DNA from: a virus
IMG/VR virus record: IMGVR_UViG_3300020183_003455
Coordinates: 1-25,654 of that record
DNA: 25,654 nt
Direction: 5' to 3' (one strand)
Shown here: in pieces, positions 4,363-19,514 of the stretch
Position numbering within the stretch: position 1 is the first letter of the stretch
Layout of the letters: each line of letters begins with the position of its first letter
Made by a program: the position numbers and the translations under genes
Notes under the pieces: model-generated
Told to the model about the DNA's origin: nothing
Databases searched by the model: none
The model's input: the letters and a program-made list of their open reading frames with translations, nothing else

Positions 4363-4446
4363 CTCCTTTAGAATCAAGGAGTTACACGTGTTTTAAAAAC
4401 ACCTGTAGAATCAGTAAGTTACATTCCCTGTAGAATCAAGGAGTTA
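4363..4446 (-). repeat. three tandem copies of a hairpin repeat with GATTCTA loop
   Basis: On the minus strand the motif TAACTCCTTGATTCTA(A/C)AGG occurs at 4446-4427, 4421-4402 (diverged: ACTTACTGATTCTACAGG) and 4384-4363. The last copy forms a perfect stem CTCCTT/AAGGAG around the loop GATTCTA (4381-4363). Between copies 2 and 3 lies a separate inverted repeat GTGTTTT/AAAACAC (4402-4388). The first copy lies inside the last codons of the methyltransferase gene; the others are between it and the promoter. Related single copies occur at 9204-9224 and 16858-16880, both beside a TTGACC box. Confidence 0.75.
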
Positions 4447-5111
4447 GTAGTCCATAGGGAAACTGGCATGGTTTCAATGGTTTCTAGGCCTGGAGTGAAG
4501 CATGGAACATCATAAGACATAAGATGGTGGAATGCTTCGTGTTTAACTTCATATGGAGGATGCTGACGACCTGACTGAGCAATAATGACAGTGGATGTTT
4601 GACCAAGGTCTGCCAAATAGTTAAGAAGGTCTGTACTTGTTTGTTGACCATATATTAAATCTGATGCAAAGATGACAGACTGCTCAGCAATCTTAGCTTT
4701 AAACAAATCTTTAATATATGCAGTCACAACTTCATTGTTGTGTGTGCTGTTGACAGCAATAGTGAAGTCGCTGTATACACAACAATCAACCCCTATTGAA
4801 ATTTTTGCTCCTGCTCTCTTAGCAGCAATTGCAACTGTGCCCTGACCTGTGCCTACATCATAGACGACTTTATCCTTTACTATATTTGGATTGTCGAGAA
4901 TCCATCTGCCTAGTACAACTCCACATTCCCAGAGGTAGGGCCATTGCCATGAATGATTATTTTGTTGAAGTAGCTTTTTAACACCATCGTCTTTTTGGGG
5001 CAGACAAAACATCTCGAGTTCAGGTAGAAGGGGATGCCTTCTCCATTTGAACCCTATAGTTAGTGTTTCTACATCTGGTGTTATAGAAGAGAATTTAGCA
5101 GGAATGTCCAT
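4419..5111 (-). CDS. class I SAM methyltransferase resembling family 16 lysine methyltransferases (230 aa)
   Basis: The N-terminal region ends in W-P-Y-L-W-E-C-G, followed by motif I V-Y-D-V-G-T-G-Q-G-T-V-A-I-A-A, an acidic end of strand 2 (G-V-D-C), and A-S-D-L-I-Y-G. The D-x-x-Y motif after strand 4, with the W-E-x-G upstream, is typical of family 16 methyltransferases, mostly protein lysine methyltransferases such as those acting on ETF-beta and calmodulin; bacterial PrmA-like enzymes are an alternative. The ATG at 5111 is preceded by GAGG eight bases away and overlaps the GT4 gene by 31 bases. A TTG at 5132 is possible but less likely. The C-terminal residues S-L-I-L-Q-G-M are encoded by a copy of the hairpin repeat. 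Confidence 0.8.
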   Translation of the reverse strand: MDIPAKFSSITPDVETLTIGFKWRRHPLLPELEMFCLPQKDDGVKKLLQQNNHSWQWPYLWECGVVLGRWILDNPNIVKDKVVYDVGTGQGTVAIAAKRAGAKISIGVDCCVYSDFTIAVNSTHNNEVVTAYIKDLFKAKIAEQSVIFASDLIYGQQTSTDLLNYLADLGQTSTVIIAQSGRQHPPYEVKHEAFHHLMSYDVPCFTPGLETIETMPVSLWTTNSLILQGM

Positions 5112-6043
5112 TCTTCTTTCCTCAAGTTCCAATCATAATTTCTATCAAAGTATTCTTTTTGAGCTTTTAAATAATTATCAGCAGAGTTTTTCTTAACAAC
5201 ATCAATTGCATGATGAAGAATTTTGAAGAACATATTAGCATGGGTATTGACATCTTCTGTATAATTATACATTAGTGCATAGTTAGCGCAGGTCTCAGGC
5301 AATGCAGCAAGAGAAGATGTCACTGTTAAGCATTGAGCTGACATTGCCTCTAGGGCACATAAGCAGCTTGTCTCTTGCCAGATAGAAGGATAGGCAAAAA
5401 TATGAGCCTTACCAATTGATGTTCTTAGTTCTTCTTGGGATACGGAGCCATGATAGGTCATATTTGGATGTTCTTGGATTTCCTTAAATAGCTCTTGATA
5501 TGGAGCATCTCTTTCTGCCCAACCATATAGCTTGAAGCTTGAGAATACATCAAGGTGAATTTGTGGATGGTACTTCAGCATCTCTTTAAATACTGGTACG
5601 AGAATTTCTAATCCACGGTGAGGAGTTGGGTGATAGATTAATCTAATCTTACCATGTCTAATGTCTGATTCATCTAGAGGTGACTTATCAATTAAATTCA
5701 TTGGAATAGGATTAATAGCATTCTTGATTACAATACCTTCTGAATAAGGTACACCAAGAACGGTATGATACATTTGCTGTTGCCAATGAGATACAAAGAC
5801 AATCTTTTTGAATTGTTTTCTATACTCAGGGTCCTTCAGCTTAGCTGACTCTGGATCCCAAGGTAGGTCATGTAACCAAAGGATTGGAATCTTGTCAGGA
5901 TTAATATCTCTAACCCTTGATGGTATAATTTGAAATTTACTTAAAAGTTCCTTATCAACATATTGCTCTAAGGCTTGAGCCATGAGCTCTGTACCACCCT
6001 TAGAATTCTTATTTGTTTCATTTCTTTCAATCACTAGTTTCAT
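5081..6043 (-). CDS. GT4-like glycosyltransferase (320 aa)
   Basis: A GT-B fold glycosyltransferase. N-terminal features include G-G-T-E-L-M-A near residue 17 and I-L-W-L-H-D-L-P-W; the middle has K-I-V-F-V-S-H-W-Q. The C-terminal domain has R-L-I-Y-H-P-T-P-H-R-G-L-E-I-L and the signature P-S-I-W-Q-E-T-S-C-L-C-A-L-E-A-M-S-A, equivalent to the E-x7-E motif that binds the sugar nucleotide in GT4 enzymes. The ATG at 6043 follows GAGG by seven bases; the TTG at 6055 is rejected. It overlaps the GT29-like gene by 17 bases and belongs to the glycan block at 4419-8283. Acceptor unknown. Confidence 0.88.
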   Translation of the reverse strand: MKLVIERNETNKNSKGGTELMAQALEQYVDKELLSKFQIIPSRVRDINPDKIPILWLHDLPWDPESAKLKDPEYRKQFKKIVFVSHWQQQMYHTVLGVPYSEGIVIKNAINPIPMNLIDKSPLDESDIRHGKIRLIYHPTPHRGLEILVPVFKEMLKYHPQIHLDVFSSFKLYGWAERDAPYQELFKEIQEHPNMTYHGSVSQEELRTSIGKAHIFAYPSIWQETSCLCALEAMSAQCLTVTSSLAALPETCANYALMYNYTEDVNTHANMFFKILHHAIDVVKKNSADNYLKAQKEYFDRNYDWNLRKEEWTFLLNSLL

Positions 6044-6857
6044 TTTTATCCTCAACTACCTCTTCTGAGGTTACTAATGTTGCGTTAGGTCTATATTTAG
6101 ACATTATAAGCTGAATATTTTCGGGAGGAGGAGATATGTTTTTCATCTCGTGGAAAACAATTTTCTTCTGATTAATTAGTTTCTCGATATATGTTTTATC
6201 AAGGTTTTCTTCAACATAAAGGCCAGCATGGGGGTTACTGTTTTTTCCTTTATGAGTTGGTAAAGGTAGATGGAAACTACTAACCTCATTAATTTGGTCA
6301 TTAAGCTTATACTGAAATCTACCTTCGAAAAAATCAAACCCAATCACATGAAGCTCTTTATATGAACGGATTATGTTTGTAAAGTATGATAGGACCATGG
6401 CGCCTTGGGACATTCTGTTGTTTATATCTATGTGCCCATAAGCCTTTTTAATTAGGCTTCTTGTCATATCATAATTACCTATGAGAAAATAGTCCTTATA
6501 AATTTGAAATTCCTTCGAGTAGAACAGTTTTGGAATTGACACATTTGGTTTATTGGCATCGTATAGAGGAATCTGTGTTATATTAATAATCTTGAATGGC
6601 GTATCCTGAAAATACATGAAGTTGTTTACACGTAGAACAGATCCTACCCAAACATCTGTTTTGGAACCTAAAAATTTTTTAAACTCTGGGAATGGTACAC
6701 CTTTACCCATTCTCACAACTACATCAAAGTTATCAATGAGACCCCCATACTCGTTAGCAAATAAACTAATTGCGTTGCCAACAACTAATACTCTCTTACC
6801 TTGGCAATATCCAATTAGTCTATTTTGAAACTTATCGTTGAGTCTCTCATTCCACAT
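6027..6857 (-). CDS. GT29 sialyltransferase-like protein (276 aa)
   Basis: Two stretches resemble the sialylmotifs of family GT29. Near residue 23: V-L-V-V-G-N-A-I-S-L, then Y-G-G-L-I-D-N-F-D-V-V-V-R-M-G-K-G, which matches the L-motif (V-V-G-N-S ... G ... I-D ... D-x-V-x-R-x-N). Near residue 147: M-S-Q-G-A-M-V-L-S-Y-F then E-L-H-V-I-G-F-D-F-F-E-G, which matches the S-motif (S-T-G ... V-x-V-Y-G-F). Such enzymes use CMP-activated sugars in eukaryotes; phage and bacterial relatives are mostly untested. A His-containing segment follows (F-H-L-P-L-P-T-H-K-G-K). No signal peptide or membrane anchor, so it would act in the host cytoplasm. It lies between the GT4 and GT8-like genes. The real donor sugar is unknown. 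Confidence 0.72.
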   Translation of the reverse strand: MWNERLNDKFQNRLIGYCQGKRVLVVGNAISLFANEYGGLIDNFDVVVRMGKGVPFPEFKKFLGSKTDVWVGSVLRVNNFMYFQDTPFKIINITQIPLYDANKPNVSIPKLFYSKEFQIYKDYFLIGNYDMTRSLIKKAYGHIDINNRMSQGAMVLSYFTNIIRSYKELHVIGFDFFEGRFQYKLNDQINEVSSFHLPLPTHKGKNSNPHAGLYVEENLDKTYIEKLINQKKIVFHEMKNISPPPENIQLIMSKYRPNATLVTSEEVVEDKNETSD

Positions 6858-7549
6858 TAGAATCTACCGTACTTCTGGATTACCCTTTCTTTGTAGAAAT
6901 TAAACCTATCAGCAAACTCAACATTTTCATAACCAGCATGCCAAGGGCCGCCATCTGTAAAATGAATTGCCTTTGGATTCTGTTGGTCGCTATAATAACC
7001 TACAAGATAGTTATATGTATGTGGAATAGAACCGATGTATTGATCATCACACCATTTGAATTCGTGTAGATATCCAGCAGGTGATTCAGAAACAACCTGA
7101 GGAGTCAATCTCTTTGTGAATGCATGGTCACAGTTAAATACCATCAGTGATGACCAATTCTTTCTAGGATACCAGCTTTGTTTTTGACCATCCATTTTTA
7201 ATGGTTTAATTTGATCTTGTTGGATGTTATGCTTGACAACACTAACAGCTTTAGTTGGGTCAACAATATCTAAAAGTTCAAGTGGATCACAATTCCAAAT
7301 AAAATCGCTGTCGCAGAAGATAGCATATCCATAGAACCCCTTGAGGTATGGAGTTAGAAATCTAGTAAATGCAAACTCCGTACTACCAACAGCCTGCTCT
7401 CTCCAATACAATCCATTATTACTAACATTGGTTAGATGAATTGTTTCAATCTCAATATCAGAATGATCCTGGATAGAAAGTCTGCATGTATCAGCCACAC
7501 TTGATTGTTTTCTATCATGGCCAATAAAGAGTTTTATTTTTTCTTTCAT
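6857..7549 (-). CDS. GT-A glycosyltransferase, GT8-like (230 aa)
   Basis: The N-terminus I-K-L-F-I-G-H-D-R-K-Q starts a nucleotide-sugar fold, and A-I-F-C-D-S-D-F-I near residue 77 gives the D-x-D motif that binds the metal and sugar nucleotide. The C-terminal motif I-H-F-T-D-G-G-P-W-H resembles the H-x-x-G-x-x-K-P-W end motif of GT8 enzymes. It touches the neighbours on both sides (overlap of four bases with the methyltransferase upstream, one base with the GT29-like gene downstream). Glycosyltransferases of this form are common in large phages. Acceptor unknown. Confidence 0.82.
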   Translation of the reverse strand: MKEKIKLFIGHDRKQSSVADTCRLSIQDHSDIEIETIHLTNVSNNGLYWREQAVGSTEFAFTRFLTPYLKGFYGYAIFCDSDFIWNCDPLELLDIVDPTKAVSVVKHNIQQDQIKPLKMDGQKQSWYPRKNWSSLMVFNCDHAFTKRLTPQVVSESPAGYLHEFKWCDDQYIGSIPHTYNYLVGYYSDQQNPKAIHFTDGGPWHAGYENVEFADRFNFYKERVIQKYGRF

Positions 7550-8283
7550 ACTTCCTGAACTTCACACAACCGATCTTTTATTTTGACTTCTGCGTACTTA
7601 TATACCCACGAAGTCGCTGATGAATTTTTATATACAAGTTTTAAAGGGTCTTCATTATTGTTTGTATCATTGTAAATAACAATGAAGCTTTTGTTGGAGA
7701 AGGCGTTCTTTAATTTGTCAACCCACCACTCTAAAGGCTTGACTGTAGCATGAAGATTTTCTCCATTATTAAAACACTTGCCAGCAAGGTTACCAGAAAT
7801 CGTCAGTAGGGCAGTGCCGTCTTCTTTCGTATAAGCAGCCAGCTCTTCGAGGACATAATCAACACTATCTTCTGGAACATGCTCCATAACATCAGCACAA
7901 CAAACCAAATCAAAAACCATTCCTTGAGGAGGCTTTACGCTATAAATTTTTACTGCTGGATCGTAGCAATAGTAACATTGAATCATGCCGTTAAAGCGGG
8001 CAATTAAAGTTTTATTACCATGTTCTTTAAGGTTAGTATAATTGTGGATAGCTTTACCACACCCATAGTCAAGTAGGGTAATTGCCCTTGACTTATTATC
8101 GATGACATCCTGAATAAACCTAGGCAATTTTTTGCCTAGCTGGGATCCATCAAAAATTACTTTGCCACGGTCCTTTTCCAACTTTGCTGGTGATATTGTT
8201 TTGTTGGTCTCGCTAGCGATGTAACTGTCTTTACCATCATGCAGTCTCTGATATCTTAAAACATACTCTTCTAATTTATTCAT
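7546..8283 (-). CDS. SAM-dependent methyltransferase (245 aa)
   Basis: A class I methyltransferase: motif I L-L-D-Y-G-C-G-K-A near residue 71, then D-L-V-C-C-A-D-V-M-E-H-V-P-E near residue 124 (the H-V-P motif of small-molecule or sugar methyltransferases), then L-A-A-Y-T-K-E-D-G-T-A-L-L-T-I-S. H-A-T-V-K-P-L-E-W-W follows near residue 179. The long N-terminal region before motif I is typical of phage and cell-surface glycan methyltransferases. It is the first gene of the 8283-4419 block. A weak late-promoter-like ACTAAATA lies about 25 bases upstream. O-methylation of a sugar is a guess from context. Confidence 0.85.
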   Translation of the reverse strand: MNKLEEYVLRYQRLHDGKDSYIASETNKTISPAKLEKDRGKVIFDGSQLGKKLPRFIQDVIDNKSRAITLLDYGCGKAIHNYTNLKEHGNKTLIARFNGMIQCYYCYDPAVKIYSVKPPQGMVFDLVCCADVMEHVPEDSVDYVLEELAAYTKEDGTALLTISGNLAGKCFNNGENLHATVKPLEWWVDKLKNAFSNKSFIVIYNDTNNNEDPLKLVYKNSSATSWVYKYAEVKIKDRLCEVQEV

Positions 8284-9187: not shown

Positions 9188-9224
9188 GGTCAACAACTAA
9201 ATTTCCTTTACAATCAAGGAGTTA
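9188..9224 (-). repeat. hairpin repeat joined to a TTGACC box
   Basis: Directly after the purA-like stop, the minus strand reads TAACTCCTTGATTGTAAAGG. The stem TCCTT/AAGGA (9220-9204) encloses GATTGTA. It is followed by TTTAGTTGTTGACC, nearly the same as at 16843-16880. TTGACC (9193-9188) would be a -35 box, but only a poor -10 (GAATAT) sits 17 bases downstream, so promoter activity is uncertain. Confidence 0.6.
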
Positions 9225-10211
9225 TATGTTGTGTGGTGTATCCGAGAATATAACCTTAACATTATCCGGTAATGCATTGACAATTGCGTCAATTAAACCA
9301 AGTCTGCTACCAGCATCATGCTCTTTAGAGTTTTGGATATATCTATAAACACCAACTTGGTCAAGGACATCAATCTTATTGACAATAAGCTGAGTGATAT
9401 CATTTACTCTTGCAGCATACGCCAACTTGTCTAGATTGATCCAATTACACTTTCTAGGACGGCCTGTGGTCGCTCCAAATTCCTGTCCTAGAATTTGAAC
9501 CTTCAATAATTCTTCACAATGCATACCAAACTCTTTTGTTCCAACATATGTTTCATATGCTTTGGCAACACCAATGATCTTTCTGATCTTCCTTGGCGAT
9601 ACACCATTCAGAACAACAGAACCAATAGTACAGTGGGAAGAAGTAACGAAAGGATAATCACCCCAATCAATGTCCAAAGCAAAGCCTTGAGCACCTTCGG
9701 CCAGAACACGAGCGCCAGCAAGATAGTCAAGACTATCCACAATGGTGAAACTATCAGTGTTAATAAGACAGTCGCCAATATGAGTGCCAGTACGTCCATA
9801 TTTGTCTTTATAGGCTGGGCCTATTCCTTGTTTAGTTGTTCCAATTGCTGTATCTTTATTATCTTCTGCCAAGTGGTCATCTGTGACAACATGGGCTCTT
9901 GAATCAATAAAGATAAGACCACGAGTATATCTGCCATAAGCTTGAAGCATTTGAATTTCTTCTTCAAGCTTCCTCACATTGACGACACAACCAATACCAA
10001 TCAATGATCGGATGCCGTAGAGAACTCCAGCTGGCACTTGATGCGTGACAATCTTCTGACCATTGTGGTAGATAGTATGTCCAGCATTCGAGCCACCATT
10101 ATATCGGAGAACTAGGTCGTACTCTCCACTACTTAGTAAAGAATGAGTAACCTTACCTTTCCCGGTATCACCTGACTGGAGGTCTACTACGGCATCACAA
10201 AAATTAACCAT
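9222..10211 (-). CDS. adenylosuccinate synthetase-like enzyme, possibly PurZ/PurZ0 type (329 aa)
   Basis: PurA joins IMP and Asp using GTP; phage PurZ relatives instead use dGMP to make the precursor of 2-aminoadenine (Z) DNA. Visible motifs: V-V-D-L-Q-S-G-D-T-G-K-G-K (residues 8-20), N-A-G-H-T with the catalytic His, G-T-T-K-Q-G-I-G-P-A-Y-K-D-K, E-G-A-Q-G, Y-P-F-V-T-S-S, and the Asp-binding loop G-A-T-T-G-R-P-R-K. At 329 residues it is about 100 shorter than bacterial PurA and near archaeal PurA and phage PurZ length. The D-L-Q-x-G-x-T-G-K-G form is like PurZ, but the catalytic Asp of G-D is kept, whereas I recall Ser there in PurZ. This points to PurZ0 or a phage PurA. No DatZ, MazZ or DNA polymerase is in the window. 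The start at 10211 overlaps the preceding stop as TAATG. Confidence 0.85.
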   Translation of the reverse strand: MVNFCDAVVDLQSGDTGKGKVTHSLLSSGEYDLVLRYNGGSNAGHTIYHNGQKIVTHQVPAGVLYGIRSLIGIGCVVNVRKLEEEIQMLQAYGRYTRGLIFIDSRAHVVTDDHLAEDNKDTAIGTTKQGIGPAYKDKYGRTGTHIGDCLINTDSFTIVDSLDYLAGARVLAEGAQGFALDIDWGDYPFVTSSHCTIGSVVLNGVSPRKIRKIIGVAKAYETYVGTKEFGMHCEELLKVQILGQEFGATTGRPRKCNWINLDKLAYAARVNDITQLIVNKIDVLDQVGVYRYIQNSKEHDAGSRLGLIDAIVNALPDNVKVIFSDTPHNI

Positions 10212-11375: not shown

Positions 11376-11972
11376 ATGCATGACAAAGTTTTGTTTATAC
11401 ACATACCAAAGACTGGTGGGCATTCCATCAGACGTTTTCTCAATCAAAACAAAATGGATAAGTGGAAAAGAGAGTATATTTTTACTCACCACGATCCTTT
11501 GTTTTATCTAGAAACTGTCAACGATTTATCTAATACCTTTATCTTTTCTGTTGTAAGGAATCCCTTTACAAGAGTGTTTAGTCATTATGTCCACGCAAGG
11601 AACATAAAGCAAATCAATCTATCATTCAATGAATTCTTAAAGTACATAAGATACAATGGTAATGTATTTCTTGTTCCAGCATTCTACCCCTCATTACCGT
11701 TAGTGTGGTACAATCAATCATTCTACCTTCACAGCAATAATGGTCAGATGATTGCTAATAAAATTTATAGGTATGAGTCACTTTCAGAATTTGAAATAGA
11801 TTTTGATACAAAACTAGAAGTAACTAATGTTGGTGTGTACACTAAATCAGATTACCTAACAAGTTATTCAAAACAAAATATTAACCTTGTTAAACAATTA
11901 TATTTCGAGGACTTCATTCGATTCAATTACTCAGATAATTTTGACGAATCAGTTGGCCTGGTAAAGGAGTAG
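11376..11972 (+). CDS. sulfotransferase, Sulfotransfer_2-like (198 aa)
   Basis: The only plus-strand gene. The N-terminal F-I-H-I-P-K-T-G-G-H-S-I (residues 7-18) is the 5'-phosphosulfate loop that binds the sulfate donor PAPS. F-S-V-V-R-N-P-F-T-R-V-F-S-H-Y (near residues 57-71) is the 3'-phosphate motif. This pattern matches carbohydrate sulfotransferases of the Sulfotransfer_2 group. It is not obviously a close paralogue of the two at 14836-16442. The start must be at or very near 11376 because the donor loop begins there. It is flanked by its own late box and by a terminator, so it looks like a separately acquired, self-contained unit. It is AT-rich (many AAT, AAA, TTA codons). Confidence 0.87.
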   Translation: MHDKVLFIHIPKTGGHSIRRFLNQNKMDKWKREYIFTHHDPLFYLETVNDLSNTFIFSVVRNPFTRVFSHYVHARNIKQINLSFNEFLKYIRYNGNVFLVPAFYPSLPLVWYNQSFYLHSNNGQMIANKIYRYESLSEFEIDFDTKLEVTNVGVYTKSDYLTSYSKQNINLVKQLYFEDFIRFNYSDNFDESVGLVKE

Positions 11973-12008
11973 CGGTTACCCGCTACTCCCTCGACTCGTC
12001 AGTGAGTC
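11966..12008. terminator. bidirectional terminator with two adjacent hairpins
   Basis: A 10-bp perfect stem GGAGTAGCGG/CCGCTACTCC with a 4-base loop (11966-11989) begins inside the sulfotransferase stop region. A second stem GACTC/GAGTC (11993-12008) is followed on the plus strand by TTACTTATTT. It separates two convergent genes. U-tracts are weak, so efficiency is uncertain. Confidence 0.7.
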
Positions 12009-12242
12009 TTACTTATTTCCTGAAATAAACTCATTAAGGCGCAGCGCCTTTCTAATGACTTCATTCTCAGAAAAATAGTCTGGCAAAGATGGAGCAGCTG
12101 GTGGAGTCTTGCTTGCATTCACAGCAGCACTAACTTCGTAATTCCACTCTTGCTCAATCATGCTTCTTTTAGAATGATATTCCTCAGAAAGCATATCCTT
12201 TGCCAATTTAACTAATTCTAATCGAATTTCAAACGGTGTCAT
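12009..12242 (-). CDS. conserved phage protein (77 aa)
   Basis: The ATG at 12242 follows AGGAGA and starts M-T-P-F-E-I-R-L-E-L-V-K-L-A-K-D-M-L, an N-terminus I recognise from small proteins in cyanophage and other marine T4-like genomes, none with a known function. The upstream part of the frame runs into the tmRNA terminator and is rejected. The C-terminus has P-P-A-A-P-S-L-P-D-Y-F then a helix. It lies downstream of the tmRNA and may be expressed by read-through. Confidence 0.72.
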   Translation of the reverse strand: MTPFEIRLELVKLAKDMLSEEYHSKRSMIEQEWNYEVSAAVNASKTPPAAPSLPDYFSENEVIRKALRLNEFISGNK

Positions 12243-12280
12243 ATTTTTATCTCCTATGTGTGTTATGTGTGTCATAATGT

Positions 12281-12306
12281 AAAAGATGGTGGGCTTTTCG
12301 CCCACC
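12281..12306 (-). terminator. rho-independent terminator of the tmRNA
   Basis: Minus strand: perfect 7-bp GC-rich stem GGTGGGC/GCCCACC with loop GAAAA (12306-12288), followed by ATCTTTT (12287-12281). It lies just after the 3' end of the tmRNA coding piece. Confidence 0.75.
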
Positions 12307-12552
12307 GTCCTAACTCGTTCTGTTACCAAGTGAGTTAAACTCTGGAACCTATACTGCTATTAAGCAGCTAGAGCCATTTCGAAGTAATCGTCGTTTGCGT
12401 TTACTTATTTTTGCGCTGATTAAGTCAGTCGCCTCACTGGTAGCCGTCGGTTTATTACTTGCCCTGTCGAAGCCAAATTCATCCCCGTAGTGGTGGAGAT
12501 GTCGGGGGTCGAACCCGAGTCCAAGACACCTTTAGTCGTCAGTTTACTACCA
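12307..12552 (-). ncRNA. ssrA: circularly permuted two-piece tmRNA
   Basis: tmRNA rescues stalled ribosomes and tags the unfinished protein. Here the tRNA 3' half comes first. Acceptor piece (12552-12491): T-arm TCGGG-TTCGACC-CCCGA (12518-12502), then CATCTCC, discriminator A and encoded CCA ending at 12491. After only four bases (CTAC) the coding piece starts at 12486 with GGGGATG and the tmRNA signature GGCTTCGACAGGG. The 7-bp acceptor stem pairs fully between the pieces, with a G-U at the third pair, the alanine identity element. TGGTAG (12552-12547) can pair with CTACCA (12443-12438), and CTTG with CAAG, as inter-piece helices. The tag frame is 12398-12360. The exact 5' end of the acceptor piece and 3' end of the coding piece are estimates. 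Permuted tmRNA is known in alphaproteobacteria, some cyanobacteria and a few betaproteobacteria. Confidence 0.95.
12360..12398 (-). other. tmRNA tag reading frame (ANDDYFEMALAA, stop TAA)
   Basis: Resume codon GCA at 12398-12396 through TAA at 12362-12360 encodes A-N-D-D-Y-F-E-M-A-L-A-A. It starts with the usual A-N-D and ends with A-L-A-A, the signal read by host ClpXP-type proteases. It is preceded by GTAAAC and the stop lies in a stem-loop, as in cellular tmRNAs. The A-N-D start with acidic and aromatic residues is like alphaproteobacterial tags. Confidence 0.93.
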
Positions 12553-12633
12553 TTATTTTTTCGTAAGCCAATAAATGTAGTTGCCCCAGATAGCGATACC
12601 AATTAACCAGTACCAATTAGGCAACCATTCCAT
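12553..12633 (-). CDS. tiny membrane protein (26 aa)
   Basis: ATG at 12633, stop TAA at 12555-12553. The product is very rich in Trp and hydrophobic residues (M-E-W-L-P-N-W-Y-W-L-I-G-I-A-I-W-G-N-Y) ending T-K-K, a plausible single membrane span. GAGAAGAG lies just before the ATG. It overlaps the 54-residue gene by 17 bases and ends exactly where the tmRNA acceptor piece begins. Too short to identify by family. Confidence 0.5.
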   Translation of the reverse strand: MEWLPNWYWLIGIAIWGNYIYWLTKK

Positions 12634-12781
12634 ACTCTTCTCTCAAGATCTTCTTGTACGGTTTACCTTCTTCAATTAGAAGAGTAACAAGTTTCAATTT
12701 GTCGGCGAGAGCTAATTGTTCATCCTTCTCTAAGGATACAACAATTGTTCGCAGTTCATCAATAGTGATTGGAAGATCCAT
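12617..12781 (-). CDS. hypothetical small protein (54 aa)
   Basis: Begins M-D-L-P-I-T-I-D-E-L-R-T-I-V-V-S-L-E-K-D and is a helical, charged, soluble protein ending E-E-Y-G-M-V-A. GAGG lies eight bases before the ATG. It is the first gene after the strong promoter at 12814-12842 and is followed by the tiny membrane gene and the tmRNA, so all three may share one transcript. No family recognised. Confidence 0.65.
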   Translation of the reverse strand: MDLPITIDELRTIVVSLEKDEQLALADKLKLVTLLIEEGKPYKKILREEYGMVA

Positions 12782-12805
12782 TTGTTCAACCTCTACATTA
12801 CCAAA

Positions 12806-12842
12806 TATTTATCATTATACAAGATTCAAATGGTCAAGTCAA
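12806..12842 (-). promoter_or_regulatory. strong sigma70 promoter with overlapping late-type box
   Basis: Minus strand: TTGACT (12842-12837), exactly 17 bases, TATAAT (12819-12814). This is the best sigma70-like promoter in the window. Directly downstream is GATAAATA (12813-12806), a late-box variant, so the tmRNA unit might be expressed early and late. Confidence 0.78.
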
Positions 12843-12891
12843 CGTCATATATTAATATGAATTGCCCTGCGATATTCACCCAGCCCAGCTC

Positions 12892-13137
12892 TTACTCCTT
12901 TGGTACTTCTGTGCAACGGAAAAATAGATATCTCTTTGCATTTCTCATTTCTGAGTTTGAAAGAAAACCATCGCTATCTTTATCTGCTCTTTCAAAGAGA
13001 CTCTTTGATACAGTGCAGAAGCGGTTTAGGTCTTCTAGTGAAACTTTGCCGTCCTTGTCAAAGTCATATTGTGATACACGGTCTTGTGCGAATGCTGGCA
13101 TTGCAGCAAATACAAGGGCGAGAGCTAACTTTTTCAT
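12892..13137 (-). CDS. secreted EF-hand protein (81 aa)
   Basis: The ATG at 13137 starts a clear signal peptide (M-K-K-L-A-L-A-L-V-F-A-A-M-P-A-F-A) with cleavage after A-F-A. Two calcium-binding EF-hand loops follow: D-F-D-K-D-G-K-V-S-L-E-D and D-K-D-S-D-G-F-L-S-N-S-E, each with acidic residues at the expected positions. Two Cys are present. It should act in the host periplasm. An upstream reading from 13197 is rejected because it would extend through the small membrane ORF in another frame. The function of calcium binding here is unknown. Confidence 0.8.
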   Translation of the reverse strand: MKKLALALVFAAMPAFAQDRVSQYDFDKDGKVSLEDLNRFCTVSKSLFERADKDSDGFLSNSEMRNAKRYLFFRCTEVPKE

Positions 13138-13150
13138 TTTGATTTTTCCT

Positions 13151-13258
13151 TTAGTAAAGTATATTTGTAAACGTAACAACCAACCAAAATGCTCCAAGCA
13201 ATAATACTGGGATTAAAATTAACCCCCAATTCTGTATAAACTGCAGAGCCTTATTCAT
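13151..13258 (-). CDS. tiny membrane protein (35 aa)
   Basis: The ATG at 13258 overlaps the peroxiredoxin stop as TAATG. The product M-N-K-A-L-Q-F-I-Q-N-W-G then runs through L-I-L-I-P-V-L-L-L-G-A-F-W-L-V-V, a clear single membrane segment, and ends N-I-L-Y. It fills the gap between the peroxiredoxin and the EF-hand gene. Function unknown. Confidence 0.6.
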   Translation of the reverse strand: MNKALQFIQNWGLILIPVLLLGAFWLVVTFTNILY

Positions 13259-13860
13259 TATAGAACATTCAATGTAGGTTCGCCAACCTTGCGGTTGCAC
13301 TGGCAAAGTTCACCAGTTTGCAATGCATCAAGGACACGAAGTGTTTCATCTGCATTACGACCAACAGCTAGGCTATTAACTGTAACGTGCTGAATTGTAT
13401 TTGTTGGATCAACAATAAATGTTGCACGAAGAGCAGCACCAGCTGGATTGAAGAATACACCTAGCTGGTCAACAAGACCCTGGATCTTAGTACCTGGATC
13501 AAATTCATCTTCTAACTTCGAGTAAACATATTGTGTACGCTGTGTATCAGCAAACATCCAAGAAGTTGTCTTCTTTAGATCTTCGTGTGCATTCTTCCAT
13601 GCTAGTTTACAGAATTCGTTGTCTGTAGAACCAATTAAAAGAACTGCATCTCTATCAGCGAAGTCTTTATTTAGCTTATCGTATGCTACAATCTCTGTTG
13701 GGCATACGAATGTAAAATCCTTAGGATAGTAGACAATTACTTTCCACTTACCCTCAAATGACTTCTCTGTAATATCTTCAAATGCACCTTCTGGTGCTAG
13801 AGCGCCTGGCTTAACACCAGTGAGCTTGAATGAGCTTAGTCTATCACCTACTGTCTTCAT
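13258..13860 (-). CDS. peroxiredoxin, AhpC/Prx1 type (200 aa)
   Basis: Reduces peroxides with a reactive Cys. The motif Y-P-K-D-F-T-F-V-C-P-T-E-I holds the peroxidatic Cys at about residue 53. The resolving Cys is in G-E-L-C-Q-C-N-R near residue 187. The supporting Arg lies in L-R-A-T-F-I-V-D-P. Length is normal for the family, so it appears intact. The ATG at 13860 follows AAGGAG; the longer frame to 13944 is rejected. It follows a conserved 45-residue phage ORF. As a phage-carried host-metabolism gene it may protect the cell from oxidative stress during infection; no reductase partner is nearby, so host electron donors would be needed. Confidence 0.92.
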   Translation of the reverse strand: MKTVGDRLSSFKLTGVKPGALAPEGAFEDITEKSFEGKWKVIVYYPKDFTFVCPTEIVAYDKLNKDFADRDAVLLIGSTDNEFCKLAWKNAHEDLKKTTSWMFADTQRTQYVYSKLEDEFDPGTKIQGLVDQLGVFFNPAGAALRATFIVDPTNTIQHVTVNSLAVGRNADETLRVLDALQTGELCQCNRKVGEPTLNVL

Positions 13861-13981
13861 TTTGTTTTTTCTCCTTAATAAGTTCCTTCTCAAGTTTGCC
13901 AAATTCACGTCTATAGACTGTCTCACCTTTATCGGGTGATTCATAGATGTATTTCTTTTCTTCCTGTTTTTGTTCTGTCAT
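13844..13981 (-). CDS. small conserved phage protein (45 aa)
   Basis: ATG at 13981, stop TGA at 13846-13844, overlapping the peroxiredoxin start by 17 bases. The core Y-I-Y-E-S-P-D-K-G-E-T-V-Y-R-R-E-F-G is a pattern I recall from small proteins in many T4-like and cyanophage genomes. The rest is a charged helix. The overlap places the AAGGAG of the peroxiredoxin inside this gene, suggesting coupled translation. Role unknown. Confidence 0.7.
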   Translation of the reverse strand: MTEQKQEEKKYIYESPDKGETVYRREFGKLEKELIKEKKQNEDSR

Positions 13982-14054
13982 ATGTATACCACTCTACTTT
14001 AAAATAGTAGTTTATCCAATTGATTGTTTCTTTTGTTTTGATAGATTTCAACTA

Positions 14055-14834
14055 TCAAGTAATTCCCATCTCTTTTCTAATCTTTGTCGCAGAGATAGCC
14101 TGAATGTCTTCTGAGAGTTCAATCTTGCTGATCGTATATCCTACATCACGACCATAGGAAATGTCAACGATATTGGGTACCCAAATGATTTGAAACTTAC
14201 CAAAGTAGTCTGAAAGCTTTCTGAACACATGGCGTTCTGTTTCTCTATTACCAAATGGATTCTTACTATCTTGTGGCATAGAGCGAATAAAGATAGCAAC
14301 TTGACCTGTCTTCTTTAGCGCTTCTTCAAACAAGGCCTTATGGCCATCGTGGAATGGCTGATATCTACCCATCATCTGAACTGTTGGCTTTGTCCAATCA
14401 AAATCTTCCATTGCAATTGTATATGCAATTTCGTTAAGTTCATCTTCATAGTCCCAAGAATTAATCCAGAACATAAATTCTTTTGGTTTCTGAAATAGCT
14501 TGTTTGTATCTTGAAACCTACCTTCCTTAATTGTATCCATAAAGATAACAATCTCACCAGCAAACAGATCTTGGGTTTCTTTTGTTGGACAGACAAAGTC
14601 ACATACTGCATGGCGACCCCGGGCGTTAGCTTCTTCAGCAAGCTTTCTCATTCGTTGAGCTTGTCTCAATCTACCTTCTGGGGAAAAGTCCCAATCGTTG
14701 AATTTTTCTCTTACCTTATCAGCATTGAAGTGTTCTACTTTGCCTTCGTGGCCACCAAGAAGGTCAACGAGTTTCATTGCGAAAGTGGTTTTACCTGAAC
14801 CGGGTAATCCCATTACTAATATTGTCGATGGCAT
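14055..14834 (-). CDS. APS kinase-like / nucleotidyltransferase fusion (259 aa)
   Basis: Residues 1 to about 145 are a P-loop kinase: G-L-P-G-S-G-K-T-T-F-A (9-19), F-N-A-D-K-V-R-E (about 38), F-S-P-E-G-R-L-R-Q-A-Q-R-M, and V-C-D-F-V-C-P-T-K-E-T. This order matches APS kinase (CysC), which makes PAPS, although its D-G-D is N-A-D here. Residues 150-259 are a nucleotidyltransferase fold with G-R-Y-Q-P-F-H-D-G-H (H-x-G-H) and a C-terminal I-S-A-T-K-I-R, similar to NMN adenylyltransferases and to the ATP sulfurylase active site. Next to two sulfotransferases, a small PAPS synthase is plausible; an NAD-salvage enzyme (NadR-like) is the main alternative. The start at 14834 is one base after the upstream stop, with GGAG before it. 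Confidence 0.82.
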   Translation of the reverse strand: MPSTILVMGLPGSGKTTFAMKLVDLLGGHEGKVEHFNADKVREKFNDWDFSPEGRLRQAQRMRKLAEEANARGRHAVCDFVCPTKETQDLFAGEIVIFMDTIKEGRFQDTNKLFQKPKEFMFWINSWDYEDELNEIAYTIAMEDFDWTKPTVQMMGRYQPFHDGHKALFEEALKKTGQVAIFIRSMPQDSKNPFGNRETERHVFRKLSDYFGKFQIIWVPNIVDISYGRDVGYTISKIELSEDIQAISATKIRKEMGIT

Positions 14835-14835
14835 A

Positions 14836-15660
14836 TTAAATCTCCACTAAATGCTTATGATGGTTTATATAAAACAGCGCTTGCTCCCACGCGCCAGGTA
14901 TTGGCTTGGGGTGATCATCAATTATGATAACTTTATCAGTATTGAATGGTGTGGGGACCAAGTGCTGGGTTAGCTGTTTATAATTTTTGATAGTGGCCTG
15001 ACTAATGTTGAGGCGATCAAATTTCATTGGTTTGATTTCATCTTCATATGAAACAACCCTGATGTTTGGATACGTTTCATATATAATTCTCCACATCATC
15101 AACTGCTCTAAAAATACATTAACGTACATATGAAGCCATCTAAAATTAATCCTTATTTCGTTATAAGTTTCAGCTTCCATGTTATTGGTGTAGATGAAAT
15201 GGCCATCTCCTTTCAGCCTTGCTATCTCTGATCTATACCTGGCATTAATTTTTGAAATAAACTGGGAAGTTACATCTCGCCTATGCGGTAGGTAAATATT
15301 TACACCACTCTTTGCACAATAGTTAATGAATTTCCAGTCAATCGTTAGCTTCTCGAGATTTTCTTTGACGGTCCATTCCTCGTTCGTATTTTCAAGAAGC
15401 CGAATGCGGTTCTGCTTAGCCTTAAAATAGTCAATGTAATTAGAACCTCTTGTAGCTAAGTTGTTGTGTTTTTGTACTATGTTTGTTTGAGAGAACTCTT
15501 TATACAAGGCCTTTAATTTATTTGTATCTGTGTTATAATTATAATCCCTTACCATAGAATGAAGTCCCTCACCAAGGTTTATGGAACCATCATTGTAGGC
15601 TATAATATCAGTAAGTAATGTACTACCTGATCTATTTGTAAAAAGAATTAGATTACTCAT
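14836..15660 (-). CDS. sulfotransferase-like protein (274 aa)
   Basis: The N-terminus L-I-L-F-T-N-R-S-G-S-T-L-L-T-D-I-I is the 5'-phosphosulfate loop of PAPS-dependent sulfotransferases. Y-L-P-H-R-R-D-V-T-S-Q-F-I-S-K near residue 124 is the 3'-phosphate motif with Arg and Ser. It resembles the Stf0-type bacterial group more than the gene at 11376. Its partner at 15657-16442 has the same layout (loop, 3' motif, H-I-Y-T-N segment, Y-E-D near the C-terminal third), so the two come from an old duplication and have diverged widely. The overlap of four bases with the partner and one-base spacing to the APS kinase-like gene indicate a unit. Target unknown. Confidence 0.75.
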   Translation of the reverse strand: MSNLILFTNRSGSTLLTDIIAYNDGSINLGEGLHSMVRDYNYNTDTNKLKALYKEFSQTNIVQKHNNLATRGSNYIDYFKAKQNRIRLLENTNEEWTVKENLEKLTIDWKFINYCAKSGVNIYLPHRRDVTSQFISKINARYRSEIARLKGDGHFIYTNNMEAETYNEIRINFRWLHMYVNVFLEQLMMWRIIYETYPNIRVVSYEDEIKPMKFDRLNISQATIKNYKQLTQHLVPTPFNTDKVIIIDDHPKPIPGAWEQALFYINHHKHLVEI

Positions 15661-16442
15661 TTTGTAATTAAATATTTTTCAATTACTGGTTCAATAACAT
15701 CCCAATTCGCTATTGTATTTTTTTCTTTTGTAGGAACGAGATACTCTTCTTGCTGAAGATATTGGTCAAATAACTCTTTTGATATTGATGCAGACGTGAA
15801 ATCACTCTTAGCTATTGTATCTTCATAGCACATTGTAACACCGTGTTGTTTATATCTATCATGCAGGTAGTGCCATGTATGTATAGATGAACCTATTTGG
15901 TAACACAGATTATGCATACTCTTCTCGTCATATGTAAGCGATTCATTTTGAGAGCTTTTTGTCTTATTAGTATAGATGTGACCTGACCATGGTCGTTTAT
16001 TGTTTTTCTCCCTTGCCATCGCTGTTACTAGACTACGCATCTGCTCCACTTTATTTGATCTATATAAGAAATAAATTTCAAAGTTATATTGTATAGCTAG
16101 CTGCAAGATTTTGTGAGGAAGTGCAGCTGGATACGTATAACATTTCAACACAACATCATTATATTGCGCAAGATCAGCAGCAAACGAGAATGCACGAATT
16201 ATTTCATTGCTCATTTCATAATAAAAATCTTCCGGCCGTTTGTTGTTTAAGTTTACTCTTGCATTGAAGTTACCCTGTTTAATGAAATCCACAACTCGTG
16301 GTGGCAACTTATTTAAAATTTGAGATCTTATTTGATGTGACAATATTTCATCGAGGTTCCAAGCATTATACTTAAATGCCAGTAAATCAGCAAGTATAGA
16401 ACTTCCGGTTCTTGGTGTAAAGAAAATTATACAGTTAGCCAC
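15657..16442 (-). CDS. sulfotransferase-like protein, paralogue (261 aa)
   Basis: The N-terminus I-I-F-F-T-P-R-T-G-S-S-I-L-A-D-L-L is the donor loop, and F-L-Y-R-S-N-K-V-E-Q-M-R-S-L near residue 125 is the second PAPS-binding motif. Like its neighbour it has H-I-Y-T-N in the middle and C-Y-E-D later. It overlaps the upstream 125-residue gene by eight bases and the next sulfotransferase by four. The catalytic base cannot be assigned by eye. A distant kinase-like P-loop protein is less likely because there is no G-K-T/S. Confidence 0.72.
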   Translation of the reverse strand: MANCIIFFTPRTGSSILADLLAFKYNAWNLDEILSHQIRSQILNKLPPRVVDFIKQGNFNARVNLNNKRPEDFYYEMSNEIIRAFSFAADLAQYNDVVLKCYTYPAALPHKILQLAIQYNFEIYFLYRSNKVEQMRSLVTAMAREKNNKRPWSGHIYTNKTKSSQNESLTYDEKSMHNLCYQIGSSIHTWHYLHDRYKQHGVTMCYEDTIAKSDFTSASISKELFDQYLQQEEYLVPTKEKNTIANWDVIEPVIEKYLITK

Positions 16443-16812
16443 CGCGCCTTAACCTTTCACCGCTACCAATTGTCTTAGGATCAGTTTCATCAGTAACATA
16501 CTGATAGGCACCCTTGTTATAGGCAATAGCAATTCGCTTACTCTTAGCAATGATAGCCTCGCGAACATGCTCTGGCTCTTTAGCTAAAACTGCAGCATCG
16601 GTCATTGATACACGCTGGGTGAAGCAGGCATTTGTCTGAAGCGACTTTGCCTGCATAACAACCTCACTATCAGGTCGGGGCGGACGATAGTCTCGAGGGG
16701 TATATACAGACTTGCTATCCATGTATTTTTTAATATCAAGCTTAGTAGCAATAACGCCACGAACCTTGCGCTTCTTTTTAGGCTTGAAGCGAGCACGAGT
16801 GTAGATTAACAT
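16435..16812 (-). CDS. conserved hypothetical basic protein (125 aa)
   Basis: The start at 16812 (M-L-I-Y-T-R-A-R-F-K-P-K-K-K-R-K-V-R-G) is chosen; the earlier codon at 16851 lies upstream of the -10 box. The N-terminus is strongly basic, the middle has Y-T-P-R-D-Y-R-P-P-R-P-D and the C-terminal half is helical and ends G-S-G-E-R-L-R-R-G-G. Basic ends suggest RNA or DNA binding (inference). It begins directly at the predicted RNA start of the promoter at 16820-16848, so the message would be leaderless, and it leads the sulfotransferase unit. Confidence 0.68.
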   Translation of the reverse strand: MLIYTRARFKPKKKRKVRGVIATKLDIKKYMDSKSVYTPRDYRPPRPDSEVVMQAKSLQTNACFTQRVSMTDAAVLAKEPEHVREAIIAKSKRIAIAYNKGAYQYVTDETDPKTIGSGERLRRGG

Positions 16813-16819
16813 ACCGTCC

Positions 16820-16848
16820 ACTATACGCACATTGAGCAAATAGGTCAA
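16820..16848 (-). promoter_or_regulatory. sigma70-type promoter
   Basis: Minus strand: TTGACC (16848-16843), exactly 17 bases, TATAGT (16825-16820). GGACGGT then separates the -10 from the ATG at 16812, placing the RNA start at or next to the ATG. It drives the sulfotransferase and APS kinase-like unit. Confidence 0.75.
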
Positions 16849-16857
16849 CAACTAAAA

Positions 16858-16880
16858 TTCCTAATAGAATCAAGAAGTTA
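16858..16880 (-). repeat. hairpin repeat with GATTCTA loop
   Basis: Minus strand TAACTTCTTGATTCTATTAGG starting at the stop codon of the cytidylyltransferase gene. The stem TTCTT/AGGAA (one G-U pair) encloses the conserved GATTCTA. It is followed by TTTAGTTGTTGACC, the -35 box of the promoter at 16820-16848, in the same arrangement as at 9188-9224. Confidence 0.65.
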
Positions 16881-17321
16881 GGCTAGCCCAGCTTGCTGTA
16901 GCGTTTTATTAGCCTCTGCATCGACAACTCTCTGCCGTAATTCCGTCGTAGAAAATGTATGTTCTCTTTTGTTAAAATAGAACTTAATACCACGTTCAAT
17001 ACATTCACTACGACCGGTAAACTCTCTGTGCTCATATTCGTCACCTAGAATGCGAATATTGATTGAGTATGCTAGAAGAATATCGACAAGATCTTTTTCT
17101 GTAGCATATACCACAACTTCATCAACATATTTGCAGGCCTGAAGCTGAACATATCGTTCAAAAATACTTTGGACGGGTTTGTTCTTTTCCTTTCTATCGA
17201 GTGTTGGATCTGTTTGTAAACCAACAATCAAGTGGTCACACTGCGTCTTTGCTTCTTTTAGCATAATGACATGACCAGCATGAAATAAATCAAATGTCGA
17301 GCAAGTAAATCCTATTTTCAT
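16878..17321 (-). CDS. cytidylyltransferase, TagD-like (147 aa)
   Basis: A small nucleotidyltransferase of the glycerol-3-phosphate cytidylyltransferase group. G-F-T-C-S-T-F-D-L-F-H-A-G-H-V (residues 4-18) contains the H-x-G-H that binds the nucleotide. K-P-V-Q-S-I-F-E-R near 48 and H-T-F-S-T-T-E-L-R-Q-R near 118 match the conserved R-Y and S-T-T motifs. Length is near the usual 130. It activates a polyol phosphate or related acid as a CDP or similar derivative; the exact substrate cannot be told (ADP-heptose-type enzymes are close relatives). The start overlaps the preceding gene by four bases. It fits the glycan role of this region. Confidence 0.85.
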   Translation of the reverse strand: MKIGFTCSTFDLFHAGHVIMLKEAKTQCDHLIVGLQTDPTLDRKEKNKPVQSIFERYVQLQACKYVDEVVVYATEKDLVDILLAYSINIRILGDEYEHREFTGRSECIERGIKFYFNKREHTFSTTELRQRVVDAEANKTLQQAGLA

Positions 17322-17713
17322 AATCCAATATTCCTTCTAGTAAATTTTACTAAAATGTTATCATTATAGTATTTGTCTGACTCTAGAACTTCATTGGCAA
17401 ACTGCAACTTAGCTTCCCAATAGTTTGTTTCGCCTCGAGTCTTACATAAGCGAACAATTCGTCTAATAAACTTGTCTTTACCTAACCTTTCAATATCCTC
17501 TAACAAACGAGGAGAGGACCCGTAGTAGTCCTTCCAATCAGACTGCTTACGCGTCTTCCTTTTCTTACCCTTAACTTGTTTGGTACCAGCTTTCGTAAAG
17601 TACTTACGGCCTAGATATAACTTGTTATTATCTAAACACTCAATCTCGTAGATGAAGCCATAGTAGCCTTTAACATCTTCATCCGTAAGTTCTTTGTCAT
17701 TATAAAACCACAT
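17318..17713 (-). CDS. GIY-YIG-like endonuclease of T4-like phages (131 aa)
   Basis: The N-terminal G-F-I-Y-E-I-E-C ... L-Y-L-G-R-K-Y-F is a GIY-YIG variant, with the Arg that follows. W-K-D-Y-Y-G-S-S-P-R-L-L-E-D-I and E-A-K-L-Q-F-A-N-E-V-L-E-S-D-K-Y-Y-N-D-N are patterns shared by similar small proteins in cyanophages and other T4-like phages. It is the nuclease domain only, with no DNA-binding module, so it is more likely a stand-alone nuclease than a homing enzyme. A late box (CATAAATA) and AGAGG precede the ATG, so it should be made late. Confidence 0.75.
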   Translation of the reverse strand: MWFYNDKELTDEDVKGYYGFIYEIECLDNNKLYLGRKYFTKAGTKQVKGKKRKTRKQSDWKDYYGSSPRLLEDIERLGKDKFIRRIVRLCKTRGETNYWEAKLQFANEVLESDKYYNDNILVKFTRRNIGL

Positions 17714-17729
17714 AATATACCTCTTGGTA

Positions 17730-17737
17730 TATTTATG
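17730..17737 (-). promoter_or_regulatory. T4-type late promoter box (CATAAATA)
   Basis: One mismatch from the late consensus, 16 bases before the ATG at 17713 and directly after the GT25 stop. The ribosome site AGAGG lies between box and start. Confidence 0.65.
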
Positions 17738-17739
17738 CG

Positions 17740-18483
17740 TTAGTGAGAGGTAATCCTTAGTGGGTCAGCTTTAAGCCCTTTCATGAACCCCGGCGATACA
17801 CAAGCATTATAGGCAGCTGGCCTACCTTGAATAGTGGAGATTCTGTCCCCTACCACGCATACTACTGGTGGTGGATCCATAACACATCTTGGTATACCAA
17901 ATGAATCGTGGATAGAAAGAATACCATCAATAGTAGTATTCACACCGCCAAACTCTTTTGTATAGTAGCCTTGCATTTTATCAATCATATATCTTGCCAT
18001 GGCAGGAGTTATAGCATAGGCATGAGTGCCTTCAAACTTATTGATATCCATAAATGATACTTGTTCATCTGGACGTTCGTAATCTTCTGCCTTTAGTACT
18101 CTATATCCAAGCATTACTAGTTTGTTATCTGGTATCTCCGTATCATAGAGTTTATCTTTTAAAATCGCATCATGTTCAAACACACAGCATGCAGTTGGCT
18201 GTTCTGCTATCACTCTCCAAAGTTTAAGATGGCTAGCAGTGCATCCCATTTCTGGAGTTCTAGATACCCACGTGAACCCTGTTACAGCCTCTAGATCCTC
18301 ACCTCTTGTTGTTTCCATACTAACTCCTTCCCAGAGTGTGTATGGCATACCATGCTCTTCACAGGACCTAGCACATTCGTTTGCATATTGAATAGATTCA
18401 GGCTTATTAATATAGATGATATAGGCATGGCGAATTTTACCTGTCTCACCAAACGCCTTATGGTTAGATCTATCTAGTTCCAT
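17740..18483 (-). CDS. glycosyltransferase family 25-like (247 aa)
   Basis: H-A-Y-I-I-Y-I-N-K-P-E-S near residue 19 is the usual opening of GT25 enzymes that extend LPS. G-C-T-A-S-H-L-K-L-W-R-V-I near residue 78 and C-V-F-E-H-D-A-I-L near residue 97 are the family's G-C-x-x-S-H and E-D-D-type motifs; here the acidic motif is E-H-D. The ATG at 18483 is chosen because no other usual start lies in frame before the nrdB stop at 18534. GGTGG lies seven bases upstream. An intergenic 50 bases separates it from nrdB. It probably transfers a hexose to a surface glycan. Confidence 0.8.
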   Translation of the reverse strand: MELDRSNHKAFGETGKIRHAYIIYINKPESIQYANECARSCEEHGMPYTLWEGVSMETTRGEDLEAVTGFTWVSRTPEMGCTASHLKLWRVIAEQPTACCVFEHDAILKDKLYDTEIPDNKLVMLGYRVLKAEDYERPDEQVSFMDINKFEGTHAYAITPAMARYMIDKMQGYYTKEFGGVNTTIDGILSIHDSFGIPRCVMDPPPVVCVVGDRISTIQGRPAAYNACVSPGFMKGLKADPLRITSH

Positions 18484-18533
18484 ACTATCGCCACCAATAG
18501 TCTTCTCGCCCTTTATCTTATGGCCTCTAACTA

Positions 18534-19514
18534 TTACGCTGCCCAAACATCCTCCCAAGAACCACTTAGTGCGCCCTTGGCATAATCCGTTGCTCTATTC
18601 TCAAAGAAGTTAGTATGGGTAGGAGCATTAATCATCTCCTCAACCCAAAGTAATGGATTCTTCTTTACTTTGAAGATGCCTTTCATCCCAAGCGATATGA
18701 GACGTCGATCAGCGATGTATCGGATATACTTCTTGACGTCTTCCGAAGTAAGATTCTCCATCTCTCCCCCCTCGAACGCCAAATCAATAAATTGATCTTC
18801 CAATTCGACCATCTTAGTTGCAATAGTATAAATTTCAGATTTAAGTTCATCATTCCACAACTCCCTATTCTCTTCGATATAGGTTCTGAATAACTTAATC
18901 ATTGCTTCGGCATGTTGAGTTTCATCAACAATACTCCAGGTAATGATCTGGCCCATCCCTTTCATCTTGCCATGGCGTGGAAAGTTAAGTAGCATAATGA
19001 ATGAACTAAACAATTGCATGCCTTCAGTGAAGGCAGAGAATGCAGCAATGTTTTGTGCAATTCTCTTTTTGTCACTCTTTGTAAACTTTGCTAGATAGTC
19101 ATGCTTATCCTTCATTGCTTGATATTCTAGGAACTGATTGTATGTATCTTCCGGCATGCCTAAAGTTTCAATCAAATGAGAATAAGCAGCAACATGTAAT
19201 GCTTCGCGAGCAGCAAAGCCAGCCAGCATCATTCTAATCTCAGGCTGAGGAAAAAATGGAAGATAGGTCTTGATGTACCCGCCAGCAACATCAATATCGC
19301 CTTGAGTAAAGAATCTGAAGATCTGTGTTAAGAACTTCTTCTCATTATCGTTTAGCTTATTCTTCCAATCTTTTAGGTCTTCTAGCATTGGTACTTCAGT
19401 ATGCAGCCAATGGCTCTGCTCATGCTTCAACCAAGCGTCATAGGCCCATGGATAATTGAATGGCTTAAAGTATGATCGTTCATCTGTAAGTACTAACTCT
19501 TGCTTTGTTGTCAT
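18534..19514 (-). CDS. nrdB: ribonucleotide reductase class Ia, small subunit
   Basis: NrdB holds the di-iron centre and tyrosyl radical used by NrdA. Metal ligands are visible in order: F-T-Q-G-D-I-D, R-E-A-L-H-V-A-A-Y (Glu, His and the radical Tyr in the E-x2-H-x3-Y arrangement), F-T-E-G-M-Q, and D-E-T-Q-H-A-E. At 326 residues it is slightly short of E. coli NrdB (376) but complete. The C-terminus G-S-W-E-D-V-W-A-A would bind NrdA. The ATG at 19514 follows AGGA. It is separated from nrdA by three genes and the duplicated nrdA tail. Confidence 0.95.
   Translation of the reverse strand: MTTKQELVLTDERSYFKPFNYPWAYDAWLKHEQSHWLHTEVPMLEDLKDWKNKLNDNEKKFLTQIFRFFTQGDIDVAGGYIKTYLPFFPQPEIRMMLAGFAAREALHVAAYSHLIETLGMPEDTYNQFLEYQAMKDKHDYLAKFTKSDKKRIAQNIAAFSAFTEGMQLFSSFIMLLNFPRHGKMKGMGQIITWSIVDETQHAEAMIKLFRTYIEENRELWNDELKSEIYTIATKMVELEDQFIDLAFEGGEMENLTSEDVKKYIRYIADRRLISLGMKGIFKVKKNPLLWVEEMINAPTHTNFFENRATDYAKGALSGSWEDVWAA

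Follow-up and report, generated by a model that had tools for sequence, protein, structure and literature searches.

Two-piece tmRNAs encoded by phages have already been published. A 2022 survey of 18,146 phage genomes detected tmRNA genes in 402 of them and described 133 unique structures, of which 53 were predicted to be two-piece, 50 of these being marine or aquatic (PMC9004378), and a 2025 tmRNA database holds 79 unique phage sequences (PMC11915505). Since such RNAs are on record, the part of the present locus that remains unusual is its linker, and a search of the two texts turned up nothing on how long phage linkers are. The marine myophages Melnitz and Mosig (PMC9004378) resemble the window, by which we mean the whole analysed stretch of 25,654 bases, in that a permuted tmRNA is carried by a T4-related phage and presumed to use host machinery. 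They differ from it in that marine myophage tmRNAs were linked to alphaproteobacterial lineages, in the glutamine riboswitch of both phages and, for Mosig, in a long spacer (IVS) with a hairpin where the window has 4 nt. The cultured Stenotrophomonas maltophilia phage BUCTxx99 has an unannotated permuted locus (L205, OR529408.1 98042-99301; tag ANDDVYVVALAA; RF04321 100 bits) that reads CCA-CTAC-GGGGATG, with the same encoded CCA, the identical CTAC and the same acceptor strand as the window, but with a different body sequence, and in an isolate whose host is known. Outside tmRNA, the permuted tRNA genes of Thermofilum pendens share with the window a minimal spacer in the acceptor loop (a 1-nt IVS) and an encoded CCA, yet they are archaeal tRNAs that are religated elsewhere, and removal of their 1-nt spacer has been described as an open question (PMC3978253).

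Our data show that the window carries a complete permuted tmRNA gene on the minus strand, at about 12551-12288, as an earlier note made from the letters alone had proposed. ARAGORN calls a permuted tmRNA at 12583-12269 (-) with the tag ANDDYFEMALAA and two stops. In cmscan, RF04321 (tmRNA_permuted) matches over the full model (1-213) at 12551-12360 with 135.2 bits and an E-value of 1e-26 against a gathering score of 47, so that the two-piece form is recovered at full length, with T-arm and CCA upstream of the acceptor 5' strand. RF01850 (beta_tmRNA) matches at 12584-12284, including the last hairpin, with 118.3 bits (E 9e-36; cut-off 84 bits). The earlier note had given the span as 12307-12552; the ends of the two pieces, CCA at 12491 and G1 at 12486 with four bases between them, are exact in the sequence. 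Two points need correction: the gene lies on the minus strand, and its span has to be extended over the terminator hairpin (12306-12288). The features are as follows.

12814-12842, minus: candidate sigma-70-like promoter TTGACT-17-TATAAT upstream of the tmRNA unit, a consensus match (11 of 12).
12617-12781, minus: 54-aa ORF beginning MDLPITIDELRT, from the sequence; first ORF of the probable transcription unit.
12553-12633, minus: 26-aa hydrophobic ORF MEWLPNWYWLIGIAIWGNYIYWLTKK, from the sequence, its stop one base before the first paired tmRNA base; a similar ORF in L401 and L371.
12491-12551, minus: acceptor piece (5' piece of the gene) with P2 strand, T-arm, acceptor 3' strand and encoded ACCA (sequence, ARAGORN, cmscan); its 5' limit is that of the gene model.
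12547-12551, minus: GGUAG strand of the helix joining the two pieces, partner CUACC at 12439-12443 (cmscan, fold).
12502-12518, minus: T-stem and T-loop UCGGG-UUCGACC-CCCGA (cmscan), with compensatory changes in 5 of 5 pairs.
12495-12501, minus: acceptor stem 3' strand CAUCUCC (cmscan, alignment).
12491-12494, minus: discriminator A and encoded CCA, the CCA end at 12491 (sequence).
12487-12490, minus: four-base linker CUAC (DNA CTAC), predicted to be removed; the same in the second assembly L054 and in phage BUCTxx99.
12307-12486, minus: coding piece with acceptor 5' strand GGGGAUG from G1 at 12486, GGCUUCGAC signature, tag frame and 3' part (ARAGORN, cmscan).
12357-12398, minus: tag reading frame ANDDYFEMALAA with two stops and resume codon GCA (ARAGORN).
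12288-12306, minus: terminator hairpin GGTGGGC-GAAAA-GCCCACC followed by a T-rich tail, the last helix of the beta_tmRNA model (cmscan, sequence).

In the transcript the order is the GGUAG strand, the T-arm, CAUCUCC, A, CCA, CUAC, GGGGAUG, GGCUUCGAC and the tag frame, which starts at an alanine resume codon (GCA) and ends in GCT GCT TAA. The acceptor stem has seven pairs, CAUCUCC with GGGGAUG, and the third is G-U, as had been stated; a G-U at this position is the alanine determinant. Segment order, T-arm, CCA, G-U acceptor, GG-YUUCGAC signature and ALAA tag are all shared with RF04321, which merges RF01849, RF01850 and RF01851. What differs is the spacer, which in the consensus is about 23 nt for RF04321, about 28 nt for the beta model and about 12 nt, without an encoded CCA, for the cyano model, compared to 4 nt in the window. 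Four bases is thus short against the consensus spacers of the lineage models, a statement that stops short of absence from bacteria. In the P2 helix the outer GGUAG/CUACC pairs are formed and the four inner pairs of the RF04321 consensus are not. The tRNA-like stems are present in the unconstrained minimum-energy fold; relative to shuffles, the folding energy of the whole gene is lower (z -3.59) and that of the tRNA-like domain alone is not (z -0.39).

In order to judge the stems beyond chance, we aligned 24 diverse relatives whose linkers have at most 8 nt. All 288 of the 288 cells of the T-stem and acceptor stem are paired (100% compared to 84.8% in shuffles), 37 cells are changed on both sides where 8.0 are expected, and compensatory change is seen in all 5 T-stem pairs and in the free acceptor pair, a result matched by 0 of 500 shuffles. 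As most acceptor and signature bases in this alignment were fixed by the search, the evidential weight lies in the T-stem and the free acceptor pair. That pair, which the search did not constrain, is formed in 184 of 186 pattern hits unfiltered for pairing, as GC, AU, CG, UA or GU. The stems of the two-piece tmRNA are backed by compensatory changes, beyond chance.

The lineage signal differs from what had been claimed. The alphaproteobacterial origin that had been proposed is not supported: of the three lineage models the beta model scores best (118.3 bits, above its cut-off of 84), compared to 72.0 bits for alpha (RF01849) and 46.3 bits, below the cut-off, for cyano. The beta score is nevertheless far under that of a real host gene, which reaches 284 bits on a Cupriavidus replicon. 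For the ribonucleotide reductase of the window, the nearest matches are in phages of Alcaligenes (61%) and Pelagibacter (about 55%), which does not fix a host. The primase is closest to that of DLP_6 (49%), a Stenotrophomonas phage with a permuted tmRNA of its own, and then to cyanomyophages (about 45%). The suggestion that the tag might be a phage-specific label finds no indication either, as ANDDYFEMALAA ends in the ordinary ALAA.

Further evidence on the linker comes from sister phages. A second assembly (L054), 99.74% identical to the window over 13.4 kb, has an identical tmRNA operon with the linker CTAC, and the syntenic sisters L335/L437, L401 and L371 carry a 44-nt IVS with the rest of the tRNA-like domain near-identical to the window. 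In the fold this 44-nt spacer forms a hairpin stacked on the acceptor stem. Two further pairs repeat the pattern: L015 (4 nt) aligns colinearly with L322 (44 nt) along 4.8 kb, with 80% identity, and L007 (IVS 5) and L346 (IVS 44) have near-identical mature RNAs. The tags ANDDYFEMALAA and ANDDSFTPMALAA each occur with both a 4- and a 44-nt IVS, and in the RNA clade of the window sister phages alternate between a linker of 4-5 nt and one of 44-51 nt. In a tree built from the mature RNA without its spacer, short and long states interleave. They require 8 changes or more (bootstrap 8-10), and well-supported branches force 3 of them; many forks of this tree are weak, and gain and loss are indistinguishable on it. 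Recombination between phages could move either spacer form. Because the same RNA is found with a 44-nt hairpin spacer in sister phages, and the same tags with both spacer forms, the spacer is dispensable for whatever maintains the gene.

The exact coincidence in position of the hairpin spacer in the long relatives and the four bases in the window is also what a collapsed hairpin would produce, in which case the linker would be an assembly artefact. We regard this as very improbable, since the operon is identical in the second assembly, at least about 20 further contigs have 4-5 nt, the same CTAC is found in the cultured isolate BUCTxx99, and the short form has a conserved CTAY or TCTAY of its own and does not look like a ragged deletion. 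The four-base linker is real, and it is not unique. The earlier note had called a permuted phage tmRNA with so short a linker unusual; the short linker stands, with relatives of its own, and permuted tmRNAs in phages had been published before (PMC9004378).

Pattern scans of IMG/VR, whose counts are lower bounds and not unbiased, gave at least 200-odd (>200) unique permuted tmRNAs with an IVS of 0-60 nt. At least about 47 of the IMG/VR cases have an IVS of 12 nt or less, and at least about 20 of these have 4-5 nt; most relatives come from metagenome assemblies. Short linkers are found in unlike bodies and with unlike tags. At the extreme, L111 and its 98.6% identical relative L176 have a zero linker, with CTCCACCA running directly into GGGGCTG, the tag ANDAVYELAA and an RF04321 score of 111 bits. 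In cyanophages S-SSM7 and S-CAM1 the sequences ACTCAG and ACTCAT, respectively, lie between the acceptor strands, without an encoded CCA. Long spacers are kept in several marine groups, in Menderavirus and in DLP_6. These results show that phages carry more tmRNAs than their annotations would lead one to expect.

A number of candidates were set aside during these searches. L087 was a coincidental pattern fit and L035 was unsupported, and both were removed from the counts; L035 and L037, which by pattern have a 2-nt linker, were dropped as being without ARAGORN or Rfam support. The latter two do have acceptor-like strands, a 2-nt gap and a tmRNA signature, but no usual T-loop. A blastn search of the 0.9-kb locus against the phage collection at 1e-5 gave no match, and CcrPW and some other blast hits turned out to be tRNA genes. 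One scan of bacterial genome contigs fixed a 5-nt spacing after the acceptor, where the spacing is 4 in the beta model and in the two bacterial genes compared; its Halobellus and Raineyella hits are due to chance and say little. Two plasmid-borne betaproteobacterial permuted tmRNA genes have long spacers. The conjugative plasmid pPO70-1 of Pandoraea oxalativorans (L429) carries a permuted tmRNA in which CCC replaces CCA, with the tag GKNDAFYYEAA.

Taken with the sister comparisons, the bases that adjoin G1 bear on how such a short linker might be removed. In short linkers, position -1 is a pyrimidine in 81%, position -2 a purine in 96% and position -3 a U in 80% (a YURY end), and long spacers also end mostly in A and then U. 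Constrained bases before G1 fit a leader read by RNase P. The bacterial enzyme recognises the acceptor and T-arm and the RCCA, often with U-1 or C-1, and cleaves hairpin model substrates (PMC11143913), and for one permuted pre-tmRNA, that of Orientia, cleavage within the loop has been demonstrated (PMC7335160). Our preferred reading, to which we give a probability of roughly 0.7, is that the locus is a functional permuted tmRNA of a T4-like phage, with the IVS reduced to CUAC, and that it relies on SmpB, AlaRS and RNase P of the host, the processing being what we infer from the sequence. Within the 25,654-base fragment no gene for SmpB was found.

According to this reading, transcription would probably start at the predicted host-type promoter, include the two small ORFs and end at the intrinsic terminator. 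The transcript would fold into a tRNA-like domain whose acceptor stem is capped by an 8-nt loop, ACCACUAC, and host RNase P would probably cut between C-1 and G1 (12487/12486), freeing the coding piece. The acceptor piece would be left ending in ...CCACUAC, from which host 3' exonucleases may trim CUAC back to CCA. A 3' tail of 4 nt is routine for tRNA 3' exonucleases, and a single cleavage by RNase P followed by this trimming of 4 nt would probably suffice. By analogy with the tmRNA family, AlaRS would charge the RNA via the G-U pair, host SmpB and EF-Tu would deliver the charged tmRNA to stalled ribosomes, and ANDDYFEMALAA would mark products for ClpXP-type proteolysis. It is plausible that the phage tmRNA would supplement host ribosome rescue, as had been suggested.

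The tight 8-nt loop could hinder RNase P from binding RCCA and cleaving at the same time, and a loop that resists cleavage might leave the RNA uncut. The short-linker RNA would then be a decoy or inhibitor, whose capped tRNA-like domain would bind SmpB and thereby prevent ribosome rescue in the host, in the manner of DS6A; for a DS6A-like RNA consisting of the tRNA-like domain only, inhibition of tmRNA is described in PMC4131195 and PMC11915505, citing Mao 2009. We consider this quite improbable, as the encoded CCA, the resume codon, the full tag ending in ALAA and the stops are retained in short and long forms alike, a decoy needs no tag, and the bases adjoining the cut site are constrained.

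A different route of cutting is less remote than a decoy, though still unlikely. Here tRNase Z, RNase E or RNase III would open the loop, exonucleases would clear the rest, and the CCA-adding enzyme would repair the CCA. The cyanophage cases speak for such a route, as ACTCAG and ACTCAT replace both CCA and linker in S-SSM7 and S-CAM1, where CCA must therefore be added, and the hairpin spacer of the long-IVS relatives could attract other nucleases. The window, in contrast, encodes its CCA, and an encoded CCA tends to deter tRNase Z. RNase III would find little to act on in four single-stranded nucleotides, and the YURY that adjoins G1 agrees with a leader for RNase P.

A wider generalization, which we hold as tentative and just short of an even chance, is that in phages the permuted tmRNA genes switch time and again between a hairpin spacer that can be removed and a spacer of 0-5 nt, so that one RNase P cut and a trim of at most 5 nt would give both mature ends. 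If this is true, in the zero-linker form of L111 and L176 a single cut would produce CCA-OH and the 5'-phosphate of G1 simultaneously. The matched natural pairs, in which the same tmRNA has 44 or 4-5 spacer bases, together with a cultured phage that has the same four-base linker, make the minimal substrate of RNase P on permuted tmRNA directly testable, and the locus lends itself to finding out how short a spacer can be and still be processed.

As for the surroundings of the gene, the 25,654-base record is probably a fragment, with genes for ribonucleotide reductase subunits, a T4-type primase, an exonuclease and an endolysin, among others. The 26-aa ORF at 12553-12633 (-) may encode a small membrane protein co-transcribed with the tmRNA. 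At 13258-13944 (-) lies a phage-encoded peroxiredoxin of the AhpC/TSA type, with only distant matches (at most 35% identity) among the best phage records listed. The regions 4419-8283 and 11376-18558 hold a probable set for surface or nucleotide-sugar modification, made up of glycosyltransferases (a sialyltransferase-like GT29 hit among them), methyltransferases, a sulfotransferase and cytidylyltransferase-like proteins. Finally, the gene at 9222-10211 (-) is adenylosuccinate synthetase-like; its sole PHROG match is annotated '2-aminooxy adenylosuccinate synthetase', and it could be either PurA-like or PurZ-like (Z-genome).
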